Shown piece after piece: positions 34,596 to 48,353 of a stretch of 50,441 nt of DNA. The stretch is from Salinibacterium sp. Lineage in GTDB: Bacteria; Actinomycetota; Actinomycetes; Actinomycetales; Microbacteriaceae. How positions within the stretch are numbered: the stretch's first letter is position 1; the number at the start of each line of letters is the position of its first letter. The position numbers and the translations under genes are program-made. The DNA is taken from the NCBI GenBank assembly GCA_025351795.1, contig JANXVG010000076.1:1-50441 (forward strand), given 5' to 3'. The notes under the pieces are model-generated. The model was not told where the DNA came from, ran no database searches, and saw only the letters and a list, made by a program, of their open reading frames with translations.

Positions 34596-36086
34596 ATGAC
34601 GACGATCGAACTCGTGGGCGTGGCTGTTGACACTCGGCACTACATCGGCGGCGAACGGGTTGCCTCGGGGGAGACGTTCGCCAACACCTCCCCGATCGAC
34701 GGCACGTTCCTCGGCGACATCGCGCGTGGGGGAGCGGCGGAAATCGGTGCTGCCGTCTCCGCGGCACGCGCTGCATTTGCCGGATGGGCAGCCATGGGTC
34801 CGCAGGCGCGCGGAGCGATACTGCATCGCGTGGCTGACCTCGTCGAGCAGAACCTCGAGACGCTCGCCGCCATTGAGACGCTCGACAATGGTGCGCTCCT
34901 GCGTAGCCATCGACGCGGGGTCATGCCGCGGGTGGCGCACAACTTGCGGTTCTTCGCAGACTGGGCGATCAACGAACTCGGGCATCCCGATCTCGATACC
35001 CGTGGGCACACTAACCACGTGAGTTGGGATCCCTCTGGGGTGGCTGCTCTCATTACGCCGTGGAACGCCCCGCTCATGCTCGCTACCTGGAAGATCGGTC
35101 CGGCGCTCGCCGCCGGGGATACCGTGGTGCTCAAACCCGCCGAGTGGACTCCGCTCAGCGCATCGTTCTTCGCTGATCTCACCAAGCAGGCGGGAATGCC
35201 CGATGGCGTCTTCAACGTCGTGCAGGGCTATGGCGATGAAGCGGGTGCTGCACTCGTCGCGCACCCCGGCATCAGCCGCATCTCATTCACTGGTTCGGTG
35301 CCGACCGCGAAGACCATCGCCCGCGCAGCCGCCGAAAATCTCACGCCATGCAGTTTCGAGCTCGGTGGTAAGAGTCCGTGCATCGTGCTCGGCGACGCCG
35401 ATCTCGAGCTCGCGGCATCCCTCGCCGTCGAGCAATACGACAACGCGGGCCAGGTCTGCCTGTCTGGCACGCGAATTCTCGTGCACGAGAGCATCGCGAC
35501 CGAGTTTATGGAAGCCTTCACAGCTAAGGCTGCGGCGCTCACGCAAGGCGACCCGCGTGACCCCGAGACAGACATCGGCCCGCAGATTCACCAGACGCAC
35601 TTCGACCGGGTGAAGGGTTTCGTCGATAGGGCAAAGGCCGAGGGTGCCGATATCGTCTGGGGCGGCGAGCCGAACGGCGAACTCGGCGGGCTGTACTTTC
35701 GCCCAACGCTCATCGCCAACCCTGCGCCCGGCAGCGAAATCGTCACCGCTGAGGTCTTCGGCCCGGTGCTCACCATGCAGACTTTTACCACGGACGACGA
35801 CGTCGTCGCCCTCGCGAACGGCACGGATTTCGGGCTGGCCGCGATCGTCGTTTCGGGAGACCGTGATCACGCAGAGCTCGTGACCAGACAACTCGTGGCT
35901 GGCACGATCTGGGTTAACTGCTTCTTCGTGCGCGACCTACGCGCTCCGTTTGGCGGCTCAAAGAAATCGGGCGTCGGTCGCGAGGGCGGCACGTGGTCCT
36001 TCGACTTCTATGCAGACATCAAGAACACCGTTTTTGCACCAACCGGCTGGAAAACCGCAACTATCGAAGGAAGTACTCATGGGTGA
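34596..36086 (+). CDS. Aldehyde dehydrogenase (HpaE-like)
   Basis: This 496-residue protein is an NAD(P)-dependent aldehyde dehydrogenase with catalytic Cys288 in GQVCLSG, Glu255 in FELGGKSP, and the coenzyme region ITPWNAPLMLATWKIGPAL followed by VLKPAEWTPL. RGHTNHV and the TPWNAPLML stretch are typical of 5-carboxymethyl-2-hydroxymuconate semialdehyde dehydrogenase (HpaE). That fits the extradiol dioxygenase encoded next, whose ring-fission product would be the semialdehyde. It heads a five-gene operon and overlaps the dioxygenase gene by 8 bases. A role in oxidising a gamma-glutamyl aldehyde (PuuC-like) is the alternative. Confidence 0.88.
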   Translation: MTTIELVGVAVDTRHYIGGERVASGETFANTSPIDGTFLGDIARGGAAEIGAAVSAARAAFAGWAAMGPQARGAILHRVADLVEQNLETLAAIETLDNGALLRSHRRGVMPRVAHNLRFFADWAINELGHPDLDTRGHTNHVSWDPSGVAALITPWNAPLMLATWKIGPALAAGDTVVLKPAEWTPLSASFFADLTKQAGMPDGVFNVVQGYGDEAGAALVAHPGISRISFTGSVPTAKTIARAAAENLTPCSFELGGKSPCIVLGDADLELAASLAVEQYDNAGQVCLSGTRILVHESIATEFMEAFTAKAAALTQGDPRDPETDIGPQIHQTHFDRVKGFVDRAKAEGADIVWGGEPNGELGGLYFRPTLIANPAPGSEIVTAEVFGPVLTMQTFTTDDDVVALANGTDFGLAAIVVSGDRDHAELVTRQLVAGTIWVNCFFVRDLRAPFGGSKKSGVGREGGTWSFDFYADIKNTVFAPTGWKTATIEGSTHG

Positions 36087-36990
36087 AGTAGTTGGGGTGG
36101 GCCTGATCGCGCACGTTCCCACGATCATGCTGCCGAAAGAGACTCGTATGGAGCTCAACGAAGGCAAAGACTCGACACTCGTCGCGGGCCTCGAGAAGCT
36201 CCGCAAAGATGTCTTTGAGTCAGTCGACTATGACACCGTCGTCGTGTTCGACAGTCATTGGGCCACTACCGTCGAGTTCGTCGTGTCATCGCACGAGCGT
36301 CGTCACGGACTGTTCACCTCGGAGGAGCTTCCGCGCGGAATGCACGCCGTGCCATTCGACTATCGGGGCGACCCCGAGCTCGCCGAGCTCATGAGTGAAG
36401 CCGCCGAGAAGAATGGAACGTGGATCACCCCGATCGACGATCCGGATCTTCCGGTCATGTACGCGACCATCAACCTCTGGAAGTTCCTCGGTGAGGGGCT
36501 TCCCGACAAGAAGTGGGTAAGTGTCTCCCTCTGCCAGACGGCGACCGACGAAGACTTCCTGCGCGCCGGGCGAGCGATCGGGGAAGCTATCGCTCAGAGC
36601 GACCGCCGGGTGATCTTGTTGGCGTCTGGGGCTCTGTCGCACACTTTTCATAAGCTGCGCGAGTTGCGCAAGCACGAGATGGCCGACCCGAGCAACATCT
36701 TCTCCAAGGAGGCGCTCAACGCTGACTACGAACGCCTCGACTGGTTCGCGGGGGGTGACCACGCGCGGGTACTCGAGACAATGCCAGCCTTCCACCGAGT
36801 GCGCCCCGAGGCGATGTTCGGCCACTGGCTGCTTGCCATCGGAGCGATCGGTGAAGAGGCGTGCACCGCACCAGGAATCCAGTACAGCGACTACGAGAAC
36901 TCGATCGGTACCGGTCAGGTGCACGTCTGGTTTCCCCAGCCTGCCGGGGGCTTCCCTCGTGCGAAAGACCTCACCCTCAGCCGTGAGTGA
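36079..36990 (+). CDS. Class III extradiol ring-cleavage dioxygenase (LigB / HpaD-like)
   Basis: This 303-residue protein has an ATG with GAAGGAA about six bases upstream, inside the end of the dehydrogenase gene. It belongs to the LigB superfamily of Fe(II) dioxygenases. Likely metal or active-site His residues are in GLIAHVPTIM near the N-terminus, in FDSHWATT and in ALSHTFHKL. The C-terminal FGHWLLAIGAIGEE is characteristic. The nearest functional type is 3,4-dihydroxyphenylacetate 2,3-dioxygenase, supported by the HpaE- and HpaG-like neighbours. It would open a catechol ring next to the hydroxyls using molecular oxygen. Confidence 0.88.
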   Translation: MGEVVGVGLIAHVPTIMLPKETRMELNEGKDSTLVAGLEKLRKDVFESVDYDTVVVFDSHWATTVEFVVSSHERRHGLFTSEELPRGMHAVPFDYRGDPELAELMSEAAEKNGTWITPIDDPDLPVMYATINLWKFLGEGLPDKKWVSVSLCQTATDEDFLRAGRAIGEAIAQSDRRVILLASGALSHTFHKLRELRKHEMADPSNIFSKEALNADYERLDWFAGGDHARVLETMPAFHRVRPEAMFGHWLLAIGAIGEEACTAPGIQYSDYENSIGTGQVHVWFPQPAGGFPRAKDLTLSRE

Positions 36991-36999
36991 CGACCTTAC

Positions 37000-37881
37000 G
37001 TGACTGAGTTGCGGCGCATAGTGCTCGACGGGTATGCCACCCAGGTCGAGCGCCACGGCGACACCCTCGTGGCCCGAGATGGCAGGCAGTTGGGCATCGA
37101 GAACGCCGTGCATCTGCCGCCGAGCGAGCCGACCAAAATTGTTGCGGTTCACCTGAACTACGCGAGCCGTACCGACGAATTCATGACCAAACTCCCCGCT
37201 GCGCCCACGTACTTTCACAAGCCCATCTCGGCTCTGAACTCGCACCGTGGTGCCGTGGTACGACCGGTTGGCTGCCGATGGCTCAACTTTGAGGGCGAGA
37301 TCGTGATTGTGATCGGGCGCACCTGCCGCAATGTCTCCCCCGAAGAGGCAAGCGACTACATCGCGGGCTACACGATCGGCAACGACTTCGGTCTGCACGA
37401 CTTTCGCGACACGGATGCTGGCTCGATGCTGCGGGTAAAGGGCAGCGACACGCTGGCCCCGGTCGGCCCCGGTCTGGTCACCGATTGGGACTTTCGCGGT
37501 AAGCGCCTTCGTACCATCGTGAACGGCGAAGTGCGACAAGACGACACCACAGACAACATGCAGTGGGACATGAACTACCTCGTCGCAGACATCGCGCGAA
37601 CGATCACCCTCGTTCCGGGCGATCTGCTGTTTACCGGCACCCCCGCGTTCTCGCGCCCGGTGGAACCCGGTGACGTTGTGGAGGTCGAGGTGGAAGGACT
37701 CGGCACTCTCTCCAACACCATTGTCGAAGGCCCCGCGGGCATTCGTAGCGACGTCGGTGCTCAGCCGACGTCGAGCGAAGAAGTGGTTTCGACGGCGCTC
37801 GGCGGCGACTGGGAGTTTCGTGGCATCCGTACCCCCAGCAAGGACTTGTACCCTTCAACCGTGGAAGAAAACACCCGATGA
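37000..37881 (+). CDS. Fumarylacetoacetate hydrolase-family enzyme (HpaG-like)
   Basis: This 293-residue protein has a GTG start nine bases after the dioxygenase stop. The FAH fold shows LNFEGEIVIVIGR (metal-binding Glu pair), NDFGLHDFR, MLRVKGSDTLAPVGP and GDLLFTGTPAFSRPVEPGD. In homoprotocatechuate pathways this family supplies the isomerase/decarboxylase HpaG, acting after ring opening and semialdehyde oxidation. Its stop overlaps the ferredoxin ATG by 4 bases. The N-terminal 45 residues are longer than the minimal FAH fold and may be a small regulatory or dimer segment. Confidence 0.85.
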   Translation: MTELRRIVLDGYATQVERHGDTLVARDGRQLGIENAVHLPPSEPTKIVAVHLNYASRTDEFMTKLPAAPTYFHKPISALNSHRGAVVRPVGCRWLNFEGEIVIVIGRTCRNVSPEEASDYIAGYTIGNDFGLHDFRDTDAGSMLRVKGSDTLAPVGPGLVTDWDFRGKRLRTIVNGEVRQDDTTDNMQWDMNYLVADIARTITLVPGDLLFTGTPAFSRPVEPGDVVEVEVEGLGTLSNTIVEGPAGIRSDVGAQPTSSEEVVSTALGGDWEFRGIRTPSKDLYPSTVEENTR

Positions 37882-38069
37882 TCAAAATCCAGGTCGACAT
37901 GGATACCTGCCAGCATTACGGGCAGTGCGTGTTCGAGGCGCCGAAAATTTTCCACCTCAATGATGACGACAAGCTCGAGTACCTCGCAGAGGTCGATGAC
38001 GACGAACGCGGTAACGTCGAGGCGGCCGTCGATGTCTGCCCCATGCAGGCCATTCGCATCGTCGAATGA
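37878..38069 (+). CDS. [3Fe-4S] ferredoxin, P450 redox partner type
   Basis: This 63-residue protein has cysteines at 11, 17 and 54 (CP). The pattern C-x2-Y-x2-C has Tyr14 where a [4Fe-4S] ferredoxin would carry Cys, so a [3Fe-4S] cluster is expected. Ferredoxins of this kind deliver electrons to actinobacterial P450s. ATGA overlaps link it to the genes on both sides. The P450 it probably serves is on the divergent transcript at 32576-33826, in the same apparent regulon. Confidence 0.93.
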   Translation: MIKIQVDMDTCQHYGQCVFEAPKIFHLNDDDKLEYLAEVDDDERGNVEAAVDVCPMQAIRIVE

Positions 38070-39262
38070 CCACCGCGCCCGTCGTCATCGTCGGGGCGTC
38101 GATGGGTGGCCTGCGCACAGCAGAGGCACTGCGCCGCGCCGGCTATTCGGGGCCGATCACTATCATCGGCGATGAAGTTCATGCCCCGTACAATCGCCCG
38201 CCACTCTCCAAAGAGGTGCTGTCGACCGAGGTGACCCACGAGGCCGTAGCATTTCCGGCCAGGGCCGCCACAGCAGACGTCGAGTGGATGCTCGGCCGTC
38301 GAGTAGTTAGCGCAAATCTCGAGGCGCACACCGTTACGACCGCAGACGGTGCCGTCGTGCCCTATCGTGCGCTGGTTGTCGCCACCGGGCTGCGGCCCAG
38401 ACGCCTTCCCGTGCCACCGCTGGCCGGCCGCCACGCCGTGCGCACACTCGACGACGCCATGGCTCTGCGCACCGAGCTCATTCCGGGAGCACGAGTGGTT
38501 GTCGTCGGCTCCGGTTTCATCGGCTGCGAGGTCGCGGCTACCGCTATGAAACTCGGATGCGCGGTGACAATCGTTTCGCCGAGCGCCGAGCCGCTCATCC
38601 GCCCGCTCGGTCGAATGCTGGGAGCAGAACTGCGCAGGCGTCACGAGGCGAGCGGTATCGCGTTTCGCATGGGGCGCACTGTCGCGGCGCTCGAAGGGGG
38701 CAGCGTGCTCACCGGCGTCGTGCTCGACGACGGAACATCGCTTGACGCCGATGTTGTGATCGAGGCTCTTGGTTCAGAAGCGAACACGGAATGGCTCGAC
38801 GGAAGCGGTCTCGATGTCTCGGACGGCGTACTCGTCGATGACGCGATGCGCGCGATCGGTGCAGACAATACGGTTCGCGACGATGTCTTCGCGGTCGGTG
38901 ACGTTGCCCGTTTTCCCAATCGCATGTTCGATGCTGAGCCGAGACGAATCGAACATTGGAACATTCCAACCGACACGGGCAAACGGGCCGGCGCCGTTCT
39001 CGCGGCGCAGCTCGCGGGCACCGCAGACGAACCTGTTTCACAATCATTCACGCCGATGCCAGCGTTCTGGTCGATCCAACTCAACGTTGACCTACAGGCA
39101 TACGGACTTCCCGGGCTCGCCGACTCTGAGCGCGTGCTCGAGGGCGACCTGGCCGGCGACGTCATCATCGGCTACTACCGTCGCGAGACCCTCGTCGGGG
39201 TAGTTGGCCTCGGAATGAAGGCTGCTCTTGTGCCGTACCGCAGACAGATCGCCGGCGACTAG
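38066..39262 (+). CDS. FAD-dependent ferredoxin reductase
   Basis: This 398-residue protein has an N-terminal FAD-binding Rossmann motif (VVIVGASMGGLRTAEAL, about 6-22), the NRPPLSKE segment, the NAD(P)H-binding motif VVVVGSGFIGCEVA (about 147-160) and the second FAD motif DDVFAVGDVARFP (about 272-284). It would pass electrons from NAD(P)H to the adjacent [3Fe-4S] ferredoxin and on to the P450. It is the last gene of the ring-cleavage operon, and no hairpin terminator was seen after it. Confidence 0.92.
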   Translation: MTTAPVVIVGASMGGLRTAEALRRAGYSGPITIIGDEVHAPYNRPPLSKEVLSTEVTHEAVAFPARAATADVEWMLGRRVVSANLEAHTVTTADGAVVPYRALVVATGLRPRRLPVPPLAGRHAVRTLDDAMALRTELIPGARVVVVGSGFIGCEVAATAMKLGCAVTIVSPSAEPLIRPLGRMLGAELRRRHEASGIAFRMGRTVAALEGGSVLTGVVLDDGTSLDADVVIEALGSEANTEWLDGSGLDVSDGVLVDDAMRAIGADNTVRDDVFAVGDVARFPNRMFDAEPRRIEHWNIPTDTGKRAGAVLAAQLAGTADEPVSQSFTPMPAFWSIQLNVDLQAYGLPGLADSERVLEGDLAGDVIIGYYRRETLVGVVGLGMKAALVPYRRQIAGD

Positions 39263-40275: not shown

Positions 40276-41283
40276 ATGGCCGAACCGTACCGAGTTATTG
40301 TCGTCGAAGACGATCCAGATGTCGCGCTGTATACCAAGCTGGTGCTCGAGAAGCATGAGCTATGCGTAGTAATGACCATCGCTGATCCCCGCGATGTGCT
40401 GTCAGCGGTGAGCGACTTCGACCCCGAGGTGGTTCTGACGGATGTCGAGTTGCCGGGAATGTCTGGGCTCGATCTGATCGCCCAGATTCGAGAGGTGCGC
40501 CCGGGTACTCCTGTCGTGGTGATGACCGCCCACGCCTCGCTCGATTATGCGGTAACGGCGTTGCGCAATCAGGCCGACGAGTTTCTCACCAAGCCGGTGC
40601 AGTCTGCGGATCTGGTCGCTCATGTCACGCGGTTGGCGGATGCGGCGCGTGACCGCGTGACCCATGCTCCACGACCGCAGGTGGTTCTTGCGATCGGGGC
40701 ACATCCCGACGATGTTGAAATCGGGGTCGGTGGTATCCTCGCCGCGCACGCCGCGGCGGGCGACTCGGTCACCATCCTCACGCTCTCCCATGGGCACCGC
40801 GAAGGCGGCGTGAAGACCGCGTGGAATGAGGGCTCGACCGCTGCGGCGTCGATCGGTGCGACGCTCATCTTGGAGGAAGGCGAAGGCTACCTCACCAATA
40901 TGCAGTCCATGATCGACCGGATCAGCCAAGTGGTCAGTGAGCTCGAGCCGACGATCGTGTACGTCCACAGCAAAAACGACCGGAATCAGGATCATCGCGC
41001 GGCGCACGGCGCGGCGCTTGCTGCTACCACTAGTGTGCGCATGATTGCCTGCTATCAGGGCACGGGAGCGACTGTCGACTTTCGGCCCAACCGATTCGTG
41101 TCAATCGATCGCTTCACGGATGCGAAGGTCGTCATGGTGGAATGTTTCGCCATGGGCGGCATTCGACCGAACTACATCAAGACTGATTTCGTGCTCGCGA
41201 CGGCACGAGCGTGGTCGAGATTTGGTGAGGGCGACTATTGCGAAGCGCTCGAGATCATTCGCGATTCTGCCCCGGTAATCTGA
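40276..41283 (+). CDS. Response-regulator receiver fused to PIG-L deacetylase, copy 1
   Basis: This 335-residue protein has an ATG with GAGGGGA five bases upstream. Residues 4-122 are a complete receiver: acidic pocket E11-D12-D13, phospho-acceptor Asp56 in VVLTD, Thr84 and Lys106. Residues 135-330 are a PIG-L / LmbE deacetylase: AHPDD (H143, D145, D146) and the distal NDRNQDHRAAH motif with H240 complete the zinc site seen in MshB and BshB relatives. No DNA-binding domain is present. Phosphorylation presumably gates de-N-acetylation of an aminosugar substrate. It is the tandem paralogue of the next gene, 108 bases downstream. Confidence 0.9.
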   Translation: MAEPYRVIVVEDDPDVALYTKLVLEKHELCVVMTIADPRDVLSAVSDFDPEVVLTDVELPGMSGLDLIAQIREVRPGTPVVVMTAHASLDYAVTALRNQADEFLTKPVQSADLVAHVTRLADAARDRVTHAPRPQVVLAIGAHPDDVEIGVGGILAAHAAAGDSVTILTLSHGHREGGVKTAWNEGSTAAASIGATLILEEGEGYLTNMQSMIDRISQVVSELEPTIVYVHSKNDRNQDHRAAHGAALAATTSVRMIACYQGTGATVDFRPNRFVSIDRFTDAKVVMVECFAMGGIRPNYIKTDFVLATARAWSRFGEGDYCEALEIIRDSAPVI

Positions 41284-41362
41284 CCGCGATGGTCACACCA
41301 GCCCCGCGCGTGACACGCGAAGACGGGGGTGGTGCGCCCTGTGCACCCGGTATTCAGACCCA

Positions 41363-41368
41363 TAGAAT
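41363..41368 (+). promoter_or_regulatory. Candidate -10 for the second receiver-PIG-L gene and operon
   Basis: TAGAAT lies 23 bases before the GTG at 41392, upstream of a G-rich ribosome-binding site. It would give the eight-gene unit its own transcript start. No matching -35 was recognised. Confidence 0.3.
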
Positions 41369-41391
41369 TGCTGCAGGGTAGGGGGGCTGCC

Positions 41392-42459
41392 GTGGAACAA
41401 AACGCATATCGGGTTCTGGTTGTCGATGACGACCCAGACGTCGCGCTCTACACGCGAACCATTTTGGAGCGTCGGGGCGGATGCTCGGTGCAGACCGTTT
41501 CCAGTCCGGCGTTGGCGCGCGTCGCCGTCCACGACTTCCGCCCTGACGTCGTGGTCACCGACATTGAGATGCCCGGTATGACTGGGCTGCAACTCCTCGC
41601 ACTCTTGCGCGCCGACCAGCCAGACCTCCCGGTGATTGTTATGACTGCCCACGTTTCTATCGAGTACGCGGTGAGTGCGCTGCGCAGCCAGGCCGACGAG
41701 TTTCTCACCAAACCGGTCGAGTCGGCCAATCTCATTGCGATCGTCGCGCGTCTCGCCGCGGAAGGTCGCAAGAAACGGGAGTCTGCCCGTCCGAGGGAAT
41801 ACGTTCTGGCAGTCGGAGCGCATCCCGATGACGTTGAGATCGGAGTTGGTGGAATACTCGCTGCACACCGTGCTGCGGGCGACCAAGTGGTCATTCTTAC
41901 GCTCTCACGCGGTGGCCAGGGCGGCGAAGCGGATGACCGCCAGCATGAGGCGCTGCGCTCGGCTGAGTTGCTCGGAGCCCGGCTGTTTCTCGAGGACCTC
42001 ATCGACACCGAGATCACGAACACCGGCCCAACGGTTGCCATAATTGAGCGAGTAGTGCGGCAGGTGAATCCCACAATTGTCTACACCCACTCGAGCCATG
42101 ATCGTCATCAAGACCACCGGGCAGTGCACGAAGCGGCGATCGTCGCTACGCGCGGCGTGGATACCGTCGCGTGCTTCCAGAGCCCATCGTCAACCGTCGA
42201 CTTCAGACCGACACGGTTTGTGAGCATTGACGGCTTCACCGACAAGAAACTTGAGCTACTGGCCTGTTTCAGTTCGCAGGCCGACATTCGCACCTATCTC
42301 GCGCCAGACTTTGTGCTGGCTACGGCCCGATATTGGTCGCGATACGGTGGTGGCGAGAGCGTCGAGCCTCTCGAGATCATTCGTGACATGGCGGATATGT
42401 CGATGTCATCACGTAAGCAGACGGTCGACCGAAACACAACGCCGGGGGAATCAGCGTGA
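41392..42459 (+). CDS. Response-regulator receiver fused to PIG-L deacetylase, copy 2
   Basis: This 355-residue protein has a GTG after a G-rich ribosome-binding site (AGGGGGG). The receiver (5-123) has Asp57 in VVVTD, Thr85 and Lys107. The PIG-L domain (137-330) has AHPDD (H144, D146, D147) and HDRHQDHRAVH. All catalytic and phospho-relay residues are present, as in copy 1, with which it shares nearly identical blocks such as QADEFLTKPV and AHPDDVEIGVGGILAAH. The C-terminal 25 residues are polar and unique. A GTGA overlap couples it to the ATP-grasp gene. Confidence 0.9.
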   Translation: MEQNAYRVLVVDDDPDVALYTRTILERRGGCSVQTVSSPALARVAVHDFRPDVVVTDIEMPGMTGLQLLALLRADQPDLPVIVMTAHVSIEYAVSALRSQADEFLTKPVESANLIAIVARLAAEGRKKRESARPREYVLAVGAHPDDVEIGVGGILAAHRAAGDQVVILTLSRGGQGGEADDRQHEALRSAELLGARLFLEDLIDTEITNTGPTVAIIERVVRQVNPTIVYTHSSHDRHQDHRAVHEAAIVATRGVDTVACFQSPSSTVDFRPTRFVSIDGFTDKKLELLACFSSQADIRTYLAPDFVLATARYWSRYGGGESVEPLEIIRDMADMSMSSRKQTVDRNTTPGESA

Positions 42460-43439
42460 CGCGCGTTCTCGTCACCGGGGCCGGGGGGCCGGCTGGCGTC
42501 GCGGTCATCCGCTCGCTACTGAAACGCGAGGATGTCGACGTCTATTGCGCAGACATGGATGGCTGGGCAAGCGGCCTCTACCTCGTTCCCGCGGGCCGGC
42601 GGCGCCTGGTGCCACCCGGCCTCGCTCTGGACTTCGTCGAGGCCGTCGCCGCGATGTGCCGGAAAGATTCCATCGATGTCGTGTTCTCGACCGTCGATGT
42701 CGAACTGTCGCCGCTCGCTCGGCGCCGAGCAGAACTCCCCGCAGTGCTCGCGGCCCCATCGATCGAAACCCTCGAGGTGACCCTCGACAAGTTCGCGCTC
42801 GCCGAACTCTGCGCATCACGGTTGCGGGTGCCGGTGACGCGTCTCGTGAACCCGGCCGGTTGCGCCGAAGACTGGGCCTTCCCGGTCATTGTCAAGCCAC
42901 GCCGCGGGGCGGGCTCCCGCGGGGTGCGCCTCGTGCCCGATCGAGCGGGCTTGCGCGTTCTCGGCACAGATCTCGACCTCATCATCCAGGAGTATCTTCC
43001 CGGCGCGGAGTACTCCGTTGACGTGATTGCCATAGCCGGCTCGGTTATTGCGGCCGTGCCCCGCACCCGCACTCGGGTGGACTCGGGCGTCTCGATCGCG
43101 GGGCGCACGGTGCACGACGATGCGCTCGAATCGACGGCTGCGGCCGTCGTGCGCGCTATCGCACTCACCGGTGTCGCCAACGTGCAGTTGCGGCTCGACA
43201 CGCAGGGCGTGCCAGCTTTGCTCGAAGTGAACCCGCGGTTTCCTGGTGCGATGCCGCTGACAATCGCTGCTGGCGTCGATATGCCATCACTCGCGCTTGA
43301 TCTTGCGCTCGGAATTGCGCTACCCGCTCACGTCGATTTTGTGGAAATTGCCAACGTGCGCTATCTGGAAGACATTTTTGTACCGCTCGACGAGCTACTC
43401 GATTCCGCGTTCGCCGCGCACGGCGAAAAATCAGAATGA
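42456..43439 (+). CDS. ATP-grasp carboxylate-amine ligase
   Basis: This 327-residue protein has an N-terminal Rossmann-like pre-ATP-grasp region (VLVTGAGGPAGVAV), then the ATP-grasp core: FPVIVKPRRGAGSRGV (P-loop-like lysine strand), IIQEYLPGAEYSVDV, and the metal-binding end LRLDTQGVPALLEVNPRFPG with Glu and Asn ligands. The overall pattern resembles the CarB-like family that joins a carboxylate to an amine through an acyl-phosphate. Following two deacetylases that can create a free amine, it may modify that amine. It overlaps both neighbours by 4 bases. Confidence 0.88.
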   Translation: MTRVLVTGAGGPAGVAVIRSLLKREDVDVYCADMDGWASGLYLVPAGRRRLVPPGLALDFVEAVAAMCRKDSIDVVFSTVDVELSPLARRRAELPAVLAAPSIETLEVTLDKFALAELCASRLRVPVTRLVNPAGCAEDWAFPVIVKPRRGAGSRGVRLVPDRAGLRVLGTDLDLIIQEYLPGAEYSVDVIAIAGSVIAAVPRTRTRVDSGVSIAGRTVHDDALESTAAAVVRAIALTGVANVQLRLDTQGVPALLEVNPRFPGAMPLTIAAGVDMPSLALDLALGIALPAHVDFVEIANVRYLEDIFVPLDELLDSAFAAHGEKSE

Positions 43440-44149
43440 ATCCCCACTCGGAGGTCGTCGGCGACTACCACGTGCACTCGACGTGGTCGGACGACGCGGT
43501 GAGTACGGTCGCTGAGAACATCGCGGCGGCATCCGCAGCTGGACTTTCGGTGATTCGCCTCATCGACCATGTGCGCGAGTCGACGACCTGGCTGCCGCAA
43601 TTTCTCGCCGAGGTTGCCGCCACGCCGGTTCCCGCCGGGCTCACCGTACTCACCGGCGTCGAGACGAAGCTCATGAACGCGCGTGGTGATCTCGACCTGC
43701 CGCGTGGCGTCGACGGTGTCAACGCGATCGTCATCGCCGACCACCAGTTTCCCGGAACTGACGGTCCATGGTCGCCCGAGGTCACTCGCCAGAACCTCGC
43801 AGCTGGGCTCGGAACAGCCGAGGCACTCGACCTCCTGGTGGGTGCACTTATTGCGGCAATGGCATCAGTGCCGTCGGCGCAACTCGCGCACTGCTTCTCG
43901 ATCCTGCCCAAGGTCGGCCTCAGCGAGGATGACCTGACTGATGAGCAGTTGCAGGCCTGGGCTGCCGCCGCAGCCGCGACGGGGACTCTCATCGAAGTCA
44001 ACGAGAAGTGGGGTTGCCCCGGACCGCGCGCCGTTCGCGCTGCCGCCAATGCACGCGCCCGACTGGTAGCCGCGACCGACAGCCACAGTGCGATGGACAT
44101 CGGGCGGTACGAGCGCGTGGTAGCAATTTTCGATGAGGCACGGTCATGA
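43436..44149 (+). CDS. PHP-domain metal-dependent hydrolase
   Basis: This 237-residue protein has the PHP signature: DYHVHSTWSDD (HxH), IDHVRES, LTGVETK, the IADHQFPG loop, LAHCF, EVNEKW and the final TDSHS. These are the residues that bind a tri- or dinuclear metal centre in histidinol-phosphate phosphatase-like enzymes. A phosphoesterase is likely; the substrate is unknown. The ATGA overlaps on both sides make it an integral operon member. Confidence 0.88.
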   Translation: MNPHSEVVGDYHVHSTWSDDAVSTVAENIAAASAAGLSVIRLIDHVRESTTWLPQFLAEVAATPVPAGLTVLTGVETKLMNARGDLDLPRGVDGVNAIVIADHQFPGTDGPWSPEVTRQNLAAGLGTAEALDLLVGALIAAMASVPSAQLAHCFSILPKVGLSEDDLTDEQLQAWAAAAAATGTLIEVNEKWGCPGPRAVRAAANARARLVAATDSHSAMDIGRYERVVAIFDEARS

Positions 44150-45657
44150 ATCTTGATTGGGCGGCCATCGATTGGGCGGGCATCGGCTACACGGCGCTCA
44201 CCGTCGTGCTCCTGGTCTTCGTTGCAACGGGGGCCGTGCCAATTCTCGCCACCGCGTATCAATTTCTTGCTATCCCGTTCCACTCGGTAGTCAATCATTA
44301 CAAGAAAGCGAAGCCGTATCTGCCTCGCGTTGCCGTGGTCGTTCCGGCGTGGAATGAGGGGGCGGTAATCGGCGCTTCCATCGAGCGTCTCATGGCGCTC
44401 GAGTATCCCCCCGAGAGCCTGCGCATTTATGTGGTTGACGATGCGAGCACAGACACGACTCCCGATGTGGTCACGGAGAAGGCGCTCATCTATCCCGGGT
44501 CGGTGTTTCACCTGCGGCGAGAGAAGGGTGGCGAGGGCAAGGCCCACACGCTCAATCACGGCATCCGTGTGGTGCTTGAAGACGACTGGATGCAGGCCCT
44601 ACTCATCATGGACGCCGACGTCATCTATCTGCCGGACTCTCTGCGCCGCATGACGCGTCACCTTGGAGATCCGGAGGTGGGCGCCGTCACCGCCTACATT
44701 CGCGAGGGCAGTGCCGACAAAAATTACCTCACTCGGTTCATCGGCATGGAATATGTGCTCGCGCAGGTGGCGGCTCGCCGCGCCCAGAACGTGCTTGGAG
44801 CTCTCGCCTGTCTTGCCGGAGGGGCCCAGCTGCACTCGCGCGAAAACCTTCTCGCGATCGGTGGACAAATCGACACGTCGAGCCTTGCCGAAGACACCAT
44901 CACGACTTTCTTGACTCAACTGGGCGGGCGCCGTGTGGTCTTCGAGCCCTTCGCGATTGTTCTCGCCGAAGAGCCGCAGCGCATTGGCGACCTGTGGAAG
45001 CAACGCCTGCGCTGGGCGCGGGGCAACGTTCAGGTCACCAACCGGTACAGGAAAATTTGGTTTCGCCGCTCACACGTGCACAAACTGGGCTCGATATCGT
45101 TTGGCGTCTTCTGGTTCAGCATCTTCCTGCTGCCCGTCGCGATGATCCTCTCCTCGCTCGGCCTGATCGGTCTGTTCATGCTGCACAGTGAACTCGCTGC
45201 GGTCGTGTTTCGGGCAATGTGGATCACTGCCGCCTGCACGTACGTCTATACGATCGCGCTCGCCGTACAACTTGATGTGCGCACCGGTCTGCGCAGTTGG
45301 CGGGAGGCCATTTTGTTTCCGGGAACCGTGTCAATTGTTGTGATGATTACCGCGTTCTTCCCCGGCCTGCTCGAGGTAAGAATTCCTGCACTGTTCGGAC
45401 TCCGACTCACCGAAACGGGCGCGACGAGCTGGGTTCTGTTCGTCTACTCCTGGATCTCCGTCTCAATGCTCGGAGCGTTGCTCGCCAAGGGTGTCGAGAA
45501 GACCGGGATCGGACGACTGCTCACGCCGCTTCTGGTCTACCTGGTCGGGTACGGTCCGCTGCTGTGTGCGGTCACCGTCGACTCATACATCAAAGAATTT
45601 CGCCACGCAGAAGCTGTCTGGGACAAGACAGAGAAGATTGGGAGGGTGCTCGGATGA
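44146..45657 (+). CDS. Processive family-2 glycosyltransferase, membrane polysaccharide synthase
   Basis: This 503-residue protein has an N-terminal transmembrane helix (about 14-45), a GT-A domain (about 60-290) and four to five C-terminal helices (about 312-480). Catalytic features are VVVPAWNEG, VVDDASTDTT, the DAD motif in LLIMDADVIY, the AED acidic site in SLAEDTIT, and QRLRW, the QxxRW motif of processive enzymes such as PgaC, NodC and hyaluronan synthase. It probably polymerises and exports a beta-linked aminosugar polymer. The nearby deacetylase domains fit a GlcNAc-type unit. Confidence 0.9.
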   Translation: MNLDWAAIDWAGIGYTALTVVLLVFVATGAVPILATAYQFLAIPFHSVVNHYKKAKPYLPRVAVVVPAWNEGAVIGASIERLMALEYPPESLRIYVVDDASTDTTPDVVTEKALIYPGSVFHLRREKGGEGKAHTLNHGIRVVLEDDWMQALLIMDADVIYLPDSLRRMTRHLGDPEVGAVTAYIREGSADKNYLTRFIGMEYVLAQVAARRAQNVLGALACLAGGAQLHSRENLLAIGGQIDTSSLAEDTITTFLTQLGGRRVVFEPFAIVLAEEPQRIGDLWKQRLRWARGNVQVTNRYRKIWFRRSHVHKLGSISFGVFWFSIFLLPVAMILSSLGLIGLFMLHSELAAVVFRAMWITAACTYVYTIALAVQLDVRTGLRSWREAILFPGTVSIVVMITAFFPGLLEVRIPALFGLRLTETGATSWVLFVYSWISVSMLGALLAKGVEKTGIGRLLTPLLVYLVGYGPLLCAVTVDSYIKEFRHAEAVWDKTEKIGRVLG

Positions 45658-45848
45658 CCACACCACTAGCGCGACATTCGATGCGAGCGCCGGTGATACC
45701 GAGTGACCGTCGAAATCCGGGCAGTGACTTCCTGCAGCAAGAACTGAGCAGTGACCGGCGCTCTGAGCGCGGGCTCATCGTGAAGGCGCTGCTCGCTCTC
45801 GCTCTGGTCGCCGTGCTTGTCTACGTGCGACAGGTGTTTTTTGTATGA
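45654..45848 (+). CDS. 64-residue single-pass membrane protein
   Basis: This short gene lies between the glycosyltransferase and the first receiver-only gene and overlaps each by 4 bases (ATGA at both ends). The first 40 residues are polar and charged (MTTPLARHSM, then DRRNPGSD). The C-terminal 22 residues form one hydrophobic helix ending QVFFV. No family was recognised. Size, position and topology suggest an accessory subunit of the synthase, comparable in layout only to PgaD/IcaD-type helpers. The perfect start/stop overlaps are the main support that it is real. Confidence 0.75.
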   Translation: MTTPLARHSMRAPVIPSDRRNPGSDFLQQELSSDRRSERGLIVKALLALALVAVLVYVRQVFFV

Positions 45849-46225
45849 CCGCCACAATGCCATCCGGGGCACGCGTCGACGTGCTCATTGTGGACGACAG
45901 CGATGACCAGCTCACACTGCTGCGCGAAAACTTCGAGCGGGCGGGATGCACGGTGACTGCCGTCGCGAATGCCGAGGCGGCAATGCAAGCTTGGGCCGCT
46001 TCCCAGCCCGACCTCGCGGTCATCGACCTCCTCCTGCCCGGCATGGATGGCTGGGCGCTTGCAACGAAATTGCACGCAGAGCTGCCGGATTGCGCCCTAG
46101 CTATCACCTCGGTGCTCGACATCGTCGACTTTCCCTTAGCGGATGCGATTCTTCCGAAGCCGTTCACCGGCGCGCAGGTGCGCCAATTGTTGGGGGACTG
46201 CGTGCCGAAATGGAGGGCGAGATGA
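45845..46225 (+). CDS. Stand-alone response-regulator receiver 1
   Basis: This 126-residue protein is a single receiver domain: VDDSDDQ acidic pocket, phospho-acceptor Asp in LAVIDLLLPGMDGW (about residue 61), Thr in AITSV and Lys in ILPKPF (about 106). The alpha4-beta5 part is shortened compared with receiver 2. There is no output domain, so it may act as a phosphate shuttle or sink, or by protein contact. It overlaps its neighbours by 4 bases on each side. Confidence 0.88.
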   Translation: MTATMPSGARVDVLIVDDSDDQLTLLRENFERAGCTVTAVANAEAAMQAWAASQPDLAVIDLLLPGMDGWALATKLHAELPDCALAITSVLDIVDFPLADAILPKPFTGAQVRQLLGDCVPKWRAR

Positions 46226-46596
46226 CACACACCGTTGTCGTCGCAGATGACGACGCTGATCTCCGCGCTCTCGTGCGGATCGCGGTCACGCGAGCCGGGC
46301 TCACTGTCGTCGCCGATGTTGAAGACGGCGCGGCGGCCCTCGCTGCGATCAGGGCTCATAACCCCGATCTCGCCATCCTCGATGTGTCGATGCCCGAGCT
46401 GAGCGGCATCGAGGTGTGCCGGGTGGTGCGAGACGACCCCAATGTGGCCGACGTGCGTATTCTGCTGCTCTCGGCATCCGTTGATGCGGCTGCCCAGCGT
46501 GAAGGGCTCGAAGCGGGGGCCGACTATTACCTGCCCAAACCGTTCAGTCCCCGCGACTTGGTCGCGTGGCTCGCCGTGGGAAAGGAAGCACGATGA
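46222..46596 (+). CDS. Stand-alone response-regulator receiver 2
   Basis: This 124-residue CheY-like receiver has ADDDAD, phospho-acceptor Asp in LAILDVSMPELSG (about residue 53), LLLSAS and Lys in YYLPKPFSP (about 103). It has no DNA-binding or enzymatic domain. It directly precedes the kinase gene with a 4-base overlap, so it is the most likely first phosphate acceptor. Together with receiver 1 and the two PIG-L fusions, four receivers share one kinase. Confidence 0.9.
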   Translation: MTHTVVVADDDADLRALVRIAVTRAGLTVVADVEDGAAALAAIRAHNPDLAILDVSMPELSGIEVCRVVRDDPNVADVRILLLSASVDAAAQREGLEAGADYYLPKPFSPRDLVAWLAVGKEAR

Positions 46597-48353
46597 AGGA
46601 GTTGTTCCGGCGGATCATGCGGCGCATCGCAGTGGACCACCCGTCGCCGCTCCGCAAGCAGTCTGCGACGGTTATCGCGCTGGCGGTTGCTGTGCTGATC
46701 GTGGTGCTGGTGCCCGGAATCGACTTTACGAACAAGCTCACGGCAACCGTGGGCATCGCTGTCGTTGCCATGGCGACTATTGTCGCTGCACTCGCTAACA
46801 AGGTGCCGCGCTTCTCTCGTTATGTGATGATGATCCCGGCGATGGACATCCTGGCGATTGGTGCGTTTAGGGACGGCACGGGCGGTACGGTCTCATTCTT
46901 CGGCTCACTAATTATTCTCCCCGTGGTGTGGCTCGCCGCTGCCGAAGGGCGCAGGCACATCGTGTATGCGGGTGTCGGTACGTCTGTCGCGCTCATGTTT
47001 CCGTACATTTTGTCGGTCACGATTCCGCAGACCCCTGCCGAATGGATGCGTGGAGTTTTCACCCCGCTCGTCTTCGGCACGGCCGCCGCAATCATCAATG
47101 AGCTGGCCAGACAGTCTCGTGCTCAAATGCGAGCACTCAAGCAGATGACCCACGACCAGGAGGCCATTCTCCAGCGCACTTTTGAGTACGCGGCAGACTT
47201 GCAGGAGAGCGAAGCCAAGTTTCGTGGGGCCGATCGTATGTTCCGCGGAGTATGGGCTGCAGTCACGGAGCAATCGGTGATCGGAACCGATGACACTGGC
47301 CTCATTGACGCCTGGAACCCTGGTGCGACCAAAATTCTTGGACCAACCGCGAGCGATGCCGAAGATAAGATGCACATCTTCGACTTTCACCTCGAAGAAG
47401 AACTCGACGCGCGTGCCAAGGAGCTCAACTACCCCCCGGGTGCCACCGTGCTCAACCCCGGTTTCTCTGCGTTGGTTGAGGCCGCGCGCCTCGGCGAAGC
47501 TGAGGTACGCGAGTGGTCGTACAGGCGCTCCGACGGTACAATTGTTCCGGTGCAACTTGCCGTGACTGCGCGTCGTGACGAGGAGGGTGCCATCTCTGGC
47601 TACCTTTTCGTCGCAACCGACGAAACGAAAAACCGCGAAGTGTCGAAGCTCAAAGACGAGTTCGTCGGACTCATTTCACATGAGTTGCGCACCCCGCTCA
47701 GCTCGATTCTGGGGTACCTCGAACTCATGCGCGACGACGATCAGAACCCGTTGTCTGCTGAACACCTGCAGTACCTCAAAGTCGCAGAGCGCAACGCCCA
47801 CCGGTTGCTGCGACTGGTGGGTGACCTGCTCTTTACCGCCCAGGTGGAGTCTGGCAAATTCCCGCTCGACGCGCGCGACGTAGACCTGGAGCGCATCGTG
47901 GCCGGGTCAGTGGAGTCGGCAGCGCCCGTAGCGTCTGCCGCCGGCATCATCTTGATGCATGAGCCCGTGGCCAACTCACCCGTTGTCTTCGGCGATCCCG
48001 TGCGACTCGGGCAGGCCGTCGATAATCTCATCTCCAACGCGATCAAGTTCACACCCAACGGAGGCACGGTGACGGTGGCGGTCAGTGCGACTGCAACCGT
48101 TGCGCTGATCACGGTGCGCGACACGGGAATTGGTATTGCGGCATCCGAACTCACCCAGCTCTTCGGCCGGTTCTTCCGAGCGACAACTGCTACCCGAAAT
48201 GCGGTACCCGGTGTGGGACTCGGTCTTACCATCACCAAGGCGATCGTGACAGCACATCACGGCGAAATGGACGTGGAGAGCGAAGAGGGCGTCGGCACTT
48301 GCTTCAGTGTGACGCTGCCGCTCGCGTTGGCGGGGGTAGTTGCGGTGGCGTAG
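46593..48353 (+). CDS. Membrane sensor histidine kinase with PAS domain
   Basis: This 586-residue protein has an ATG after GGAAAGGAAG. About six hydrophobic segments lie in residues 27-170 with only short loops, which suggests sensing within or at the membrane. A coiled linker (170-215) leads to a PAS domain (about 220-345), then HisKA with the phospho-acceptor His363 in SHELRTPLSS, and a HATPase domain (about 460-580) with DNLISNAIKF (N box), DTGIGI (G1) and GVGLGLTI (G2). It is the only kinase in the operon and the probable donor to its four receivers. Confidence 0.92.
   Translation: MKELFRRIMRRIAVDHPSPLRKQSATVIALAVAVLIVVLVPGIDFTNKLTATVGIAVVAMATIVAALANKVPRFSRYVMMIPAMDILAIGAFRDGTGGTVSFFGSLIILPVVWLAAAEGRRHIVYAGVGTSVALMFPYILSVTIPQTPAEWMRGVFTPLVFGTAAAIINELARQSRAQMRALKQMTHDQEAILQRTFEYAADLQESEAKFRGADRMFRGVWAAVTEQSVIGTDDTGLIDAWNPGATKILGPTASDAEDKMHIFDFHLEEELDARAKELNYPPGATVLNPGFSALVEAARLGEAEVREWSYRRSDGTIVPVQLAVTARRDEEGAISGYLFVATDETKNREVSKLKDEFVGLISHELRTPLSSILGYLELMRDDDQNPLSAEHLQYLKVAERNAHRLLRLVGDLLFTAQVESGKFPLDARDVDLERIVAGSVESAAPVASAAGIILMHEPVANSPVVFGDPVRLGQAVDNLISNAIKFTPNGGTVTVAVSATATVALITVRDTGIGIAASELTQLFGRFFRATTATRNAVPGVGLGLTITKAIVTAHHGEMDVESEEGVGTCFSVTLPLALAGVVAVA

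Follow-up and report, generated by a model that had tools for sequence, protein, structure and literature searches.

Tandem Receiver–PIG-L Fusions in a Salinibacterium Operon: A Predicted Deacetylase and a Paralogue With a Changed Active Site

The Fusion Genes and Their Operon

The analysed window, a stretch of 50,441 nucleotides from Salinibacterium sp. (contig JANXVG010000076.1), contains two tandem genes that each encode for a receiver joined to a PIG-L domain, where an earlier note made from the sequence alone had placed them. The pair is followed by further genes on the same strand:

40276..41283, + strand, copy 1: receiver and PIG-L, 335 aa (Pfam, residue comparison)
41392..42459, + strand, copy 2: receiver and PIG-L, 355 aa, GTG start assumed (Pfam, residue comparison)
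42456..43439, + strand, ATP-grasp ligase (ATPgrasp_Ter / PylC-like), sharing 4 bases with the end of copy 2 (conserved neighbour)
43436..44149, + strand, PHP-domain phosphoesterase-like protein (conserved neighbour)
44146..45657, + strand, membrane GT2 glycosyltransferase (best NCBIfam match PgaC/IcaA, below the cut-off)
45654..45848, + strand, small membrane protein of 64 aa with a single hydrophobic stretch on visual inspection (without a Pfam match; position after GT2 or PHP conserved in pathway-bearing operons)
45845..46225, + strand, stand-alone receiver RECa
46210..46596, + strand, stand-alone receiver RECb, start assumed
46593..48353, + strand, PAS histidine kinase whose N-terminal part is hydrophobic (present in both operon types described below)

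From copy 2 onward most genes of the operon overlap by 4 bases. Upstream, positions 34596–39262 of the window resemble an aromatic-ring cleavage cluster, in which the last gene is ferredoxin-reductase-like by Pfam and the others were read from the sequence. The same genome holds two further PIG-L genes (L001, L002), which may resemble the mycothiol enzymes MshB and Mca.

Domains, Active-Site Residues and Predicted Fold

Both Pfam domains scored above their curated cut-offs in each protein, with Response_reg at E 1.3e-27 and PIG-L at E 6.1e-18 in copy 1, and at E 4.3e-29 and E 1.5e-23 in copy 2. Each receiver has the Thr, the Lys and the phospho-Asp (Asp56 for copy 1 and Asp57 for copy 2) that the earlier note had read, and the acid pair as well. 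For the PIG-L half, the reference BC1534 (2ixd) was aligned to copy 2 and the residues were counted out by hand. H12, D14, D15, R53, R109, H110, D112 and H113 of BC1534 are identical in copy 2 (H12, D14 and D15 are H13, D15 and D16 in MshB numbers), and every PIG-L residue compared is intact there, including the metal triad, the general-base Asp and the substrate Arg and His. The predicted model of copy 2 has a pLDDT of 90.4, and its best Foldseek matches include BC1534, TT1542, BshB and diacetylchitobiose deacetylase.

Copy 1 also has the PIG-L match, a fold predicted with high confidence, the AHPDD motif, the metal ligands and the general-base Asp, but it fails at the conserved substrate and oxyanion residues. 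Ala182 (codon 40819–40821) replaces the conserved Arg (R53 of BC1534) and Asn237 (codon 40984–40986) replaces the conserved His (H110 of BC1534, H144 of MshB). The distal DH motif is found in both copies, as DRNQDH in copy 1 versus DRHQDH in copy 2. According to a review of these enzymes (PMC4101496), R53A abolished and H110A lowered the activity of BshB, and H144A, at the site of H110, left MshB with at most 1% of its activity. Because MshB and BshB need these two sites, the earlier note is wrong to credit copy 1 with every catalytic residue; of the two, copy 2 has the complete PIG-L site, and the AHPDD and DH motifs are common to both. Judged by its residues, copy 1 is a PIG-L/LmbE homologue that should not be classed as an active member, and it is probably no ordinary deacetylase. 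Copy 2 is likely an active deacetylase, predicted to be under the control of a kinase. Neither copy reaches the NCBIfam cut-off for BshB1 (182.5 bits; 86.5 bits for copy 2 and 66.2 bits for copy 1), and MshB was not among the 25 families listed of 95 and 101.

Distribution of the Fusion

The best 80 of the 551 relatives confirmed in a genome scan form a wider contig set. Among these 80 the fusion occurs in Actinomycetota, Pseudomonadota, Bacteroidota, Gemmatimonadota and others. Since the architecture recurs in several phyla, it cannot be put down to chance, and the search across genomes that the earlier note had suggested also recovered a conserved operon. Within the locus DNA of the same best 80 of 551, there is an ATP-grasp match in 66/80 cases, a PHP match in 55/80 and a GT2 match in 62/80. 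One locus, L039, carries both fusion and pathway genes, yet it is unclustered and missing from the residue alignment of this set.

Within the family, 67 of 398 genomes gave a match, two of them (G215, G283) over the receiver alone, in a search whose first look scored 5 candidates per genome. The phylum sample yielded 3/396 genomes, the window's own included, at a threshold of E 1e-50 that, combined with the same first look at 5 candidates per genome, misses distant members. The regions compared came from 72 sources, namely 11 from the genus, 60 from the rest of the family and the window. Outside the genus 64 family genomes had a match, of which 60 were included and G040, G132, G283 and G352 were left out.

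The key receiver residues are well kept. Five of them are intact in all 73 family rows, and the receiver key residues are intact in 69/80 rows of the wider set (best 80 of 551 relatives). Degenerate receivers in most genomes, which the earlier note had named as evidence against itself, are thus not what the sequences show. In L075–L077, L080–L082, L084 and L085 receiver residues are changed or missing and the seven PIG-L residues scored below are intact, the reverse of copy 1. A second, distant fusion-like gene lies near the operon in L030 (16297–17784) and has lost key residues of both receiver and PIG-L; L204 has a similar gene.

Operon Types and State of the Active Site

The family operons fall into two types. 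Type A consists of the fusion, ATP-grasp, PHP and GT2 genes (the last in 34/43 rows), followed by receivers and kinase. Type B consists of the fusion, receivers and kinase, without ATP-grasp, PHP and GT2. The active site was scored by seven core PIG-L residues that hold across phyla, and the degenerate second gene of L204 (L204_b) was excluded from the family two-by-two counts. In the 73 family rows, all 43 fusions that adjoin an ATP-grasp gene keep the seven residues, whereas 24 of the 30 without an adjoining ATP-grasp gene miss at least one and 6/30 are intact. The first copies of both tandems, that of the window and that of G017, are among the 24 decayed rows. The conserved Arg (R53 of BC1534) is lost in 23 of these 24, copy 1 among them. 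The six loci that keep an intact site despite a reduced operon are L164, L174, L176, L185, L186 and L187.

R109 was dropped as a diagnostic residue. It varies outside the family in operons with pathway genes, and the rows were therefore recounted on the seven others; with R109 scored, the family table had been 43 intact and 0 not intact beside ATP-grasp, and 1 against 29 otherwise. GT2 was likewise dropped as a criterion, being absent locally in 9/43 pathway rows. The small membrane protein between fusion and kinase was found in 41/43 pathway loci and 1/29 others (L211) after filtering; at L110 and L204 the filter missed it and the unfiltered list matched it.

Fisher's test gives p 5e-14 for the link between ATP-grasp gene and active site, a value that would be valid only were the rows independent. 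They are related, and five independent comparisons remain. On a quick kinase tree of 69 rows (3/72 sources yielded no kinase row that could be used), the type labels A and B change 7 times each, and supported branches force at least 5 and at least 4 changes. Five independent pairs lie on supported branches, of which 3–4 agree, 0 disagree and 1–2 show no difference (p 0.125–0.25). L211, which has no PIG-L to score and stands outside the 73 rows, was scored as lost in this test. As read from these sequences, related bacteria that lack the pathway genes tend to have a decayed enzyme half and an intact switch half.

The loci also represent stages of reduction. L164 has lost the pathway enzymes and keeps an intact site, and in L192 and L210 the sites are decayed. 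At L211:8795–9300 the receiver frame runs to AHPDDV and then departs from the family sequence, so that most of PIG-L is gone; this locus lost the three pathway enzymes and retains receivers, kinase and the small membrane protein.

Pathway Genes at Genome Level

A whole-genome search found no ATP-grasp match in any of the 22 reduced-operon genomes outside the genus, with 2/2 controls positive. In the genus, ATP-grasp occurs in 5/27 genomes, exactly those with a copy-2-type fusion, and in 0/7 reduced ones, so that the reduced-operon genomes overall gave a match in 0/29. The kinase was found in the same 12/27 genus genomes as the fusion. GT2 is present elsewhere in the genome in all nine pathway genomes that lack it in the operon and in 0/5 reduced (type B) genomes.

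In the wider set (best 80 of 551 relatives), the seven PIG-L residues are intact in 77/80 rows. The rows that are not intact are L034 and L042, which are family type B loci, and the second, degenerate gene in L030. Among loci with an ATP-grasp match 65/66 rows keep the seven residues. Fourteen rows of these best 80 have no ATP-grasp gene in reach, and 12 of them are intact; ten of these 12 genomes carry ATP-grasp elsewhere by whole-genome search, although in L055 and L058 that gene may come from another copy of the operon. Neither L029 and L059, with an intact site, nor the decayed L034 and L042 gave an ATP-grasp match in the whole genome. The link between ATP-grasp and an intact site holds at genome level, with exceptions.

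Origin of the Tandem and Nature of Copy 1

The earlier note saw long identical blocks in the two copies and took them for a duplication in which both remained enzymes. The blocks are there, with 55% identity across 329 residues, but the copies sit in separate clades, which argues against a recent doubling. In the fusion tree 21 rows form the supported clade to which copy 1 belongs, and not one of them adjoins ATP-grasp; the relatives of copy 1 are lone fusions in operons without pathway genes. Copy 2 belongs to another supported clade, whose 16 rows are all type A. In the genus the fusion is present in 12/27 genomes, and 2 of the 12 (the window's and G017) have the tandem of both classes; besides the window, 8 genomes have the copy-1 type (G017 also the copy-2 type) and 3 the copy-2 type alone. 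This pattern would follow if the ancestor had the tandem and one side was lost later, and transfer may be another source of it. From the tree, copy 1 appears to be an older paralogue and not the product of a recent doubling of one enzyme.

If copy 1 is not a usual deacetylase, the alternative with most in its favour is that it is still an enzyme, as are its relatives, but one that acts on a new substrate or by a new chemistry, with the metal site kept, the pocket rebuilt and [AV]WxEGS in place of the Arg-bearing stretch. The decayed family rows keep the metal triad in 22/24 cases and the general-base Asp in 20/24, so altered chemistry is possible. The motif is confined to the copy-1-type clade (13 of its 21 rows, 0/16 outgroup rows), and PIG-L dN/dS by a simple Nei–Gojobori count is low for the two closest decayed-site pairs (0.178 for L105/L106 and 0.105 for L154/L155). 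In the same clade, however, L161 lacks metal ligands and L158, L162 and L167 lack the general-base Asp, so that no one chemistry can be common to all its members, and the Arg and His missing in copy 1 are kept in 77/80 rows of the best 80 of 551. We consider new chemistry a rather doubtful explanation for copy 1.

It is less probable still that copy 1 tolerates its two substitutions and works as an active deacetylase in the same role as copy 2. Its AHPDD motif, the metal ligand of its DH motif and its confidently predicted fold would fit, but single changes at just those sites cripple MshB and BshB in the review cited above (PMC4101496), and copy-1-type genes are found in genomes without the pathway.

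That copy 1 is a functionless gene in decay is very improbable. In its favour, the active site is damaged, PIG-L of this kind diverges faster than the receiver away from ATP-grasp (mean pairwise identity 0.583 for PIG-L and 0.662 for the receiver, against 0.744 and 0.610 beside ATP-grasp) and wider pairs there reach a PIG-L dN/dS of 0.4–0.8, though they seem saturated, as do wide type A pairs, which makes dN/dS weak evidence. Against it, the frame is open, the receiver residues are intact in every such family row, in many genomes the gene leads an operon that also has receivers and kinase, and the closest pairs show low dN/dS. The genes with decayed sites are thus probably not dead.

Proposed Function of the Operon

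We propose, with a probability of about 0.6, that the locus is a two-component-controlled operon for an aminosugar product in which copy 2 is the active deacetylase and copy 1 is a phospho-controlled partner or adaptor and not a second enzyme of the same kind. The product would most likely be a surface glycan or glycolipid that contains an aminosugar. The PAS histidine kinase of the operon is the likely phospho-donor. It would phosphorylate the receiver of copy 2 at Asp57, and the phosphorylated receiver would alter the activity or the partner binding of the PIG-L half, which in turn would strip the acyl group off an N-acyl aminosugar. The ATP-grasp ligase could then use the freed amine, the GT2 enzyme would build or move the chain and the PHP protein may serve as a phosphoesterase. 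The sequences show the domains, the operon, the states of the residues and how these go with the pathway genes; phosphorylation and substrate we infer, and the order of steps is taken from the neighbouring genes. The direct wiring of two-component signaling to an amide deacetylase, put forward for both proteins in the earlier note, fits copy 2 with its complete site and a kinase in the operon; it does not extend to copy 1, where two active-site residues are gone.

Copy 1 has an apparently functional receiver and a PIG-L half without two residues for substrate binding and catalysis. It is probably a phospho-switch whose PIG-L half is non-catalytic or altered. As partner or adaptor it might pair with copy 2, which is a guess, or exchange phosphate with RECa, RECb and the kinase. 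More tentatively, response regulators with a deacetylase output might repeatedly turn into non-catalytic phospho-switches when the pathway is lost, and the kinase might here tune the active form through an inactive twin at its side. The natural series of full operon, tandem, reduced operon and receiver only would allow tests of how an enzyme is lost while its signal input is retained, and of the tuning of active enzymes by inactive twins.

Comparison With Known Systems

The earlier note knew of no characterised system of this kind, and no description of the receiver–PIG-L fusion or its operon was found among the open-licence papers listed. A paper on C. difficile pig-L describes a free-standing PIG-L protein beside a response-regulator gene and not a fusion (PMC12613277). 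No chain that joins receiver and PIG-L was among the structural matches listed (best 60 of 267; best 50 of 1774).

At four gammaproteobacterial loci a haem-NO-binding (HNOB) gene lies beside the fusion, which recalls H-NOX/histidine kinase nitric-oxide signaling. These genes are divergent to the fusion:

L061:9267–9812, − strand, HNOB gene (Pfam)
L063:1673–2224, − strand, HNOB gene (similarity)
L066:9218–9829, − strand, HNOB gene (similarity)
L070:9211–9759, − strand, HNOB gene (Pfam)

All four have TPR and low-molecular-weight phosphatase genes downstream. L070 also has a glucosamine-6-phosphate-synthase-like gene and, by Pfam, genes for a hybrid kinase and a LuxR-type regulator after HNOB. 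As indirect evidence, these genes would point to nitric oxide as an input at those loci and to a surface polysaccharide as the output. The window has no HNOB-like ORF and a PAS kinase instead, and no HNOB-like gene is present in the DNA compared at L057 (Lysobacterales) and L064 (Burkholderiales).

A second likeness is to poly-N-acetylglucosamine synthesis, where a GT2 enzyme of the PgaC/IcaA kind also goes together with a deacetylase. The GT2 protein of the window scores best against NCBIfam PgaC/IcaA, with 118.2 bits that do not reach the cut-off of 422.3. Unlike in the PgaC/IcaA system, the window's deacetylase is a PIG-L domain joined to a receiver. To our knowledge, ATP-grasp and PHP partners are no part of that system.

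With the LmbE/PIG-L deacetylases (BC1534, BshB, MshB, TT1542 and diacetylchitobiose deacetylase) the C-terminal half shares fold and active-site layout, and copy 2 keeps all residues compared. Both copies differ from these enzymes by the added N-terminal receiver, and copy 1 also by the absence of the Arg and His needed in BshB and MshB. An enzyme as the output of a response regulator is nothing new, as CheB shows. CheB (1a2o) and PleD, which appear among the Foldseek matches of copy 2 with low TM-scores, presumably via the receiver, combine a receiver with an enzyme domain as the fusions do. The output here is a PIG-L deacetylase, which would extend the range of response-regulator enzyme outputs by a deacetylase, within a conserved biosynthetic operon.
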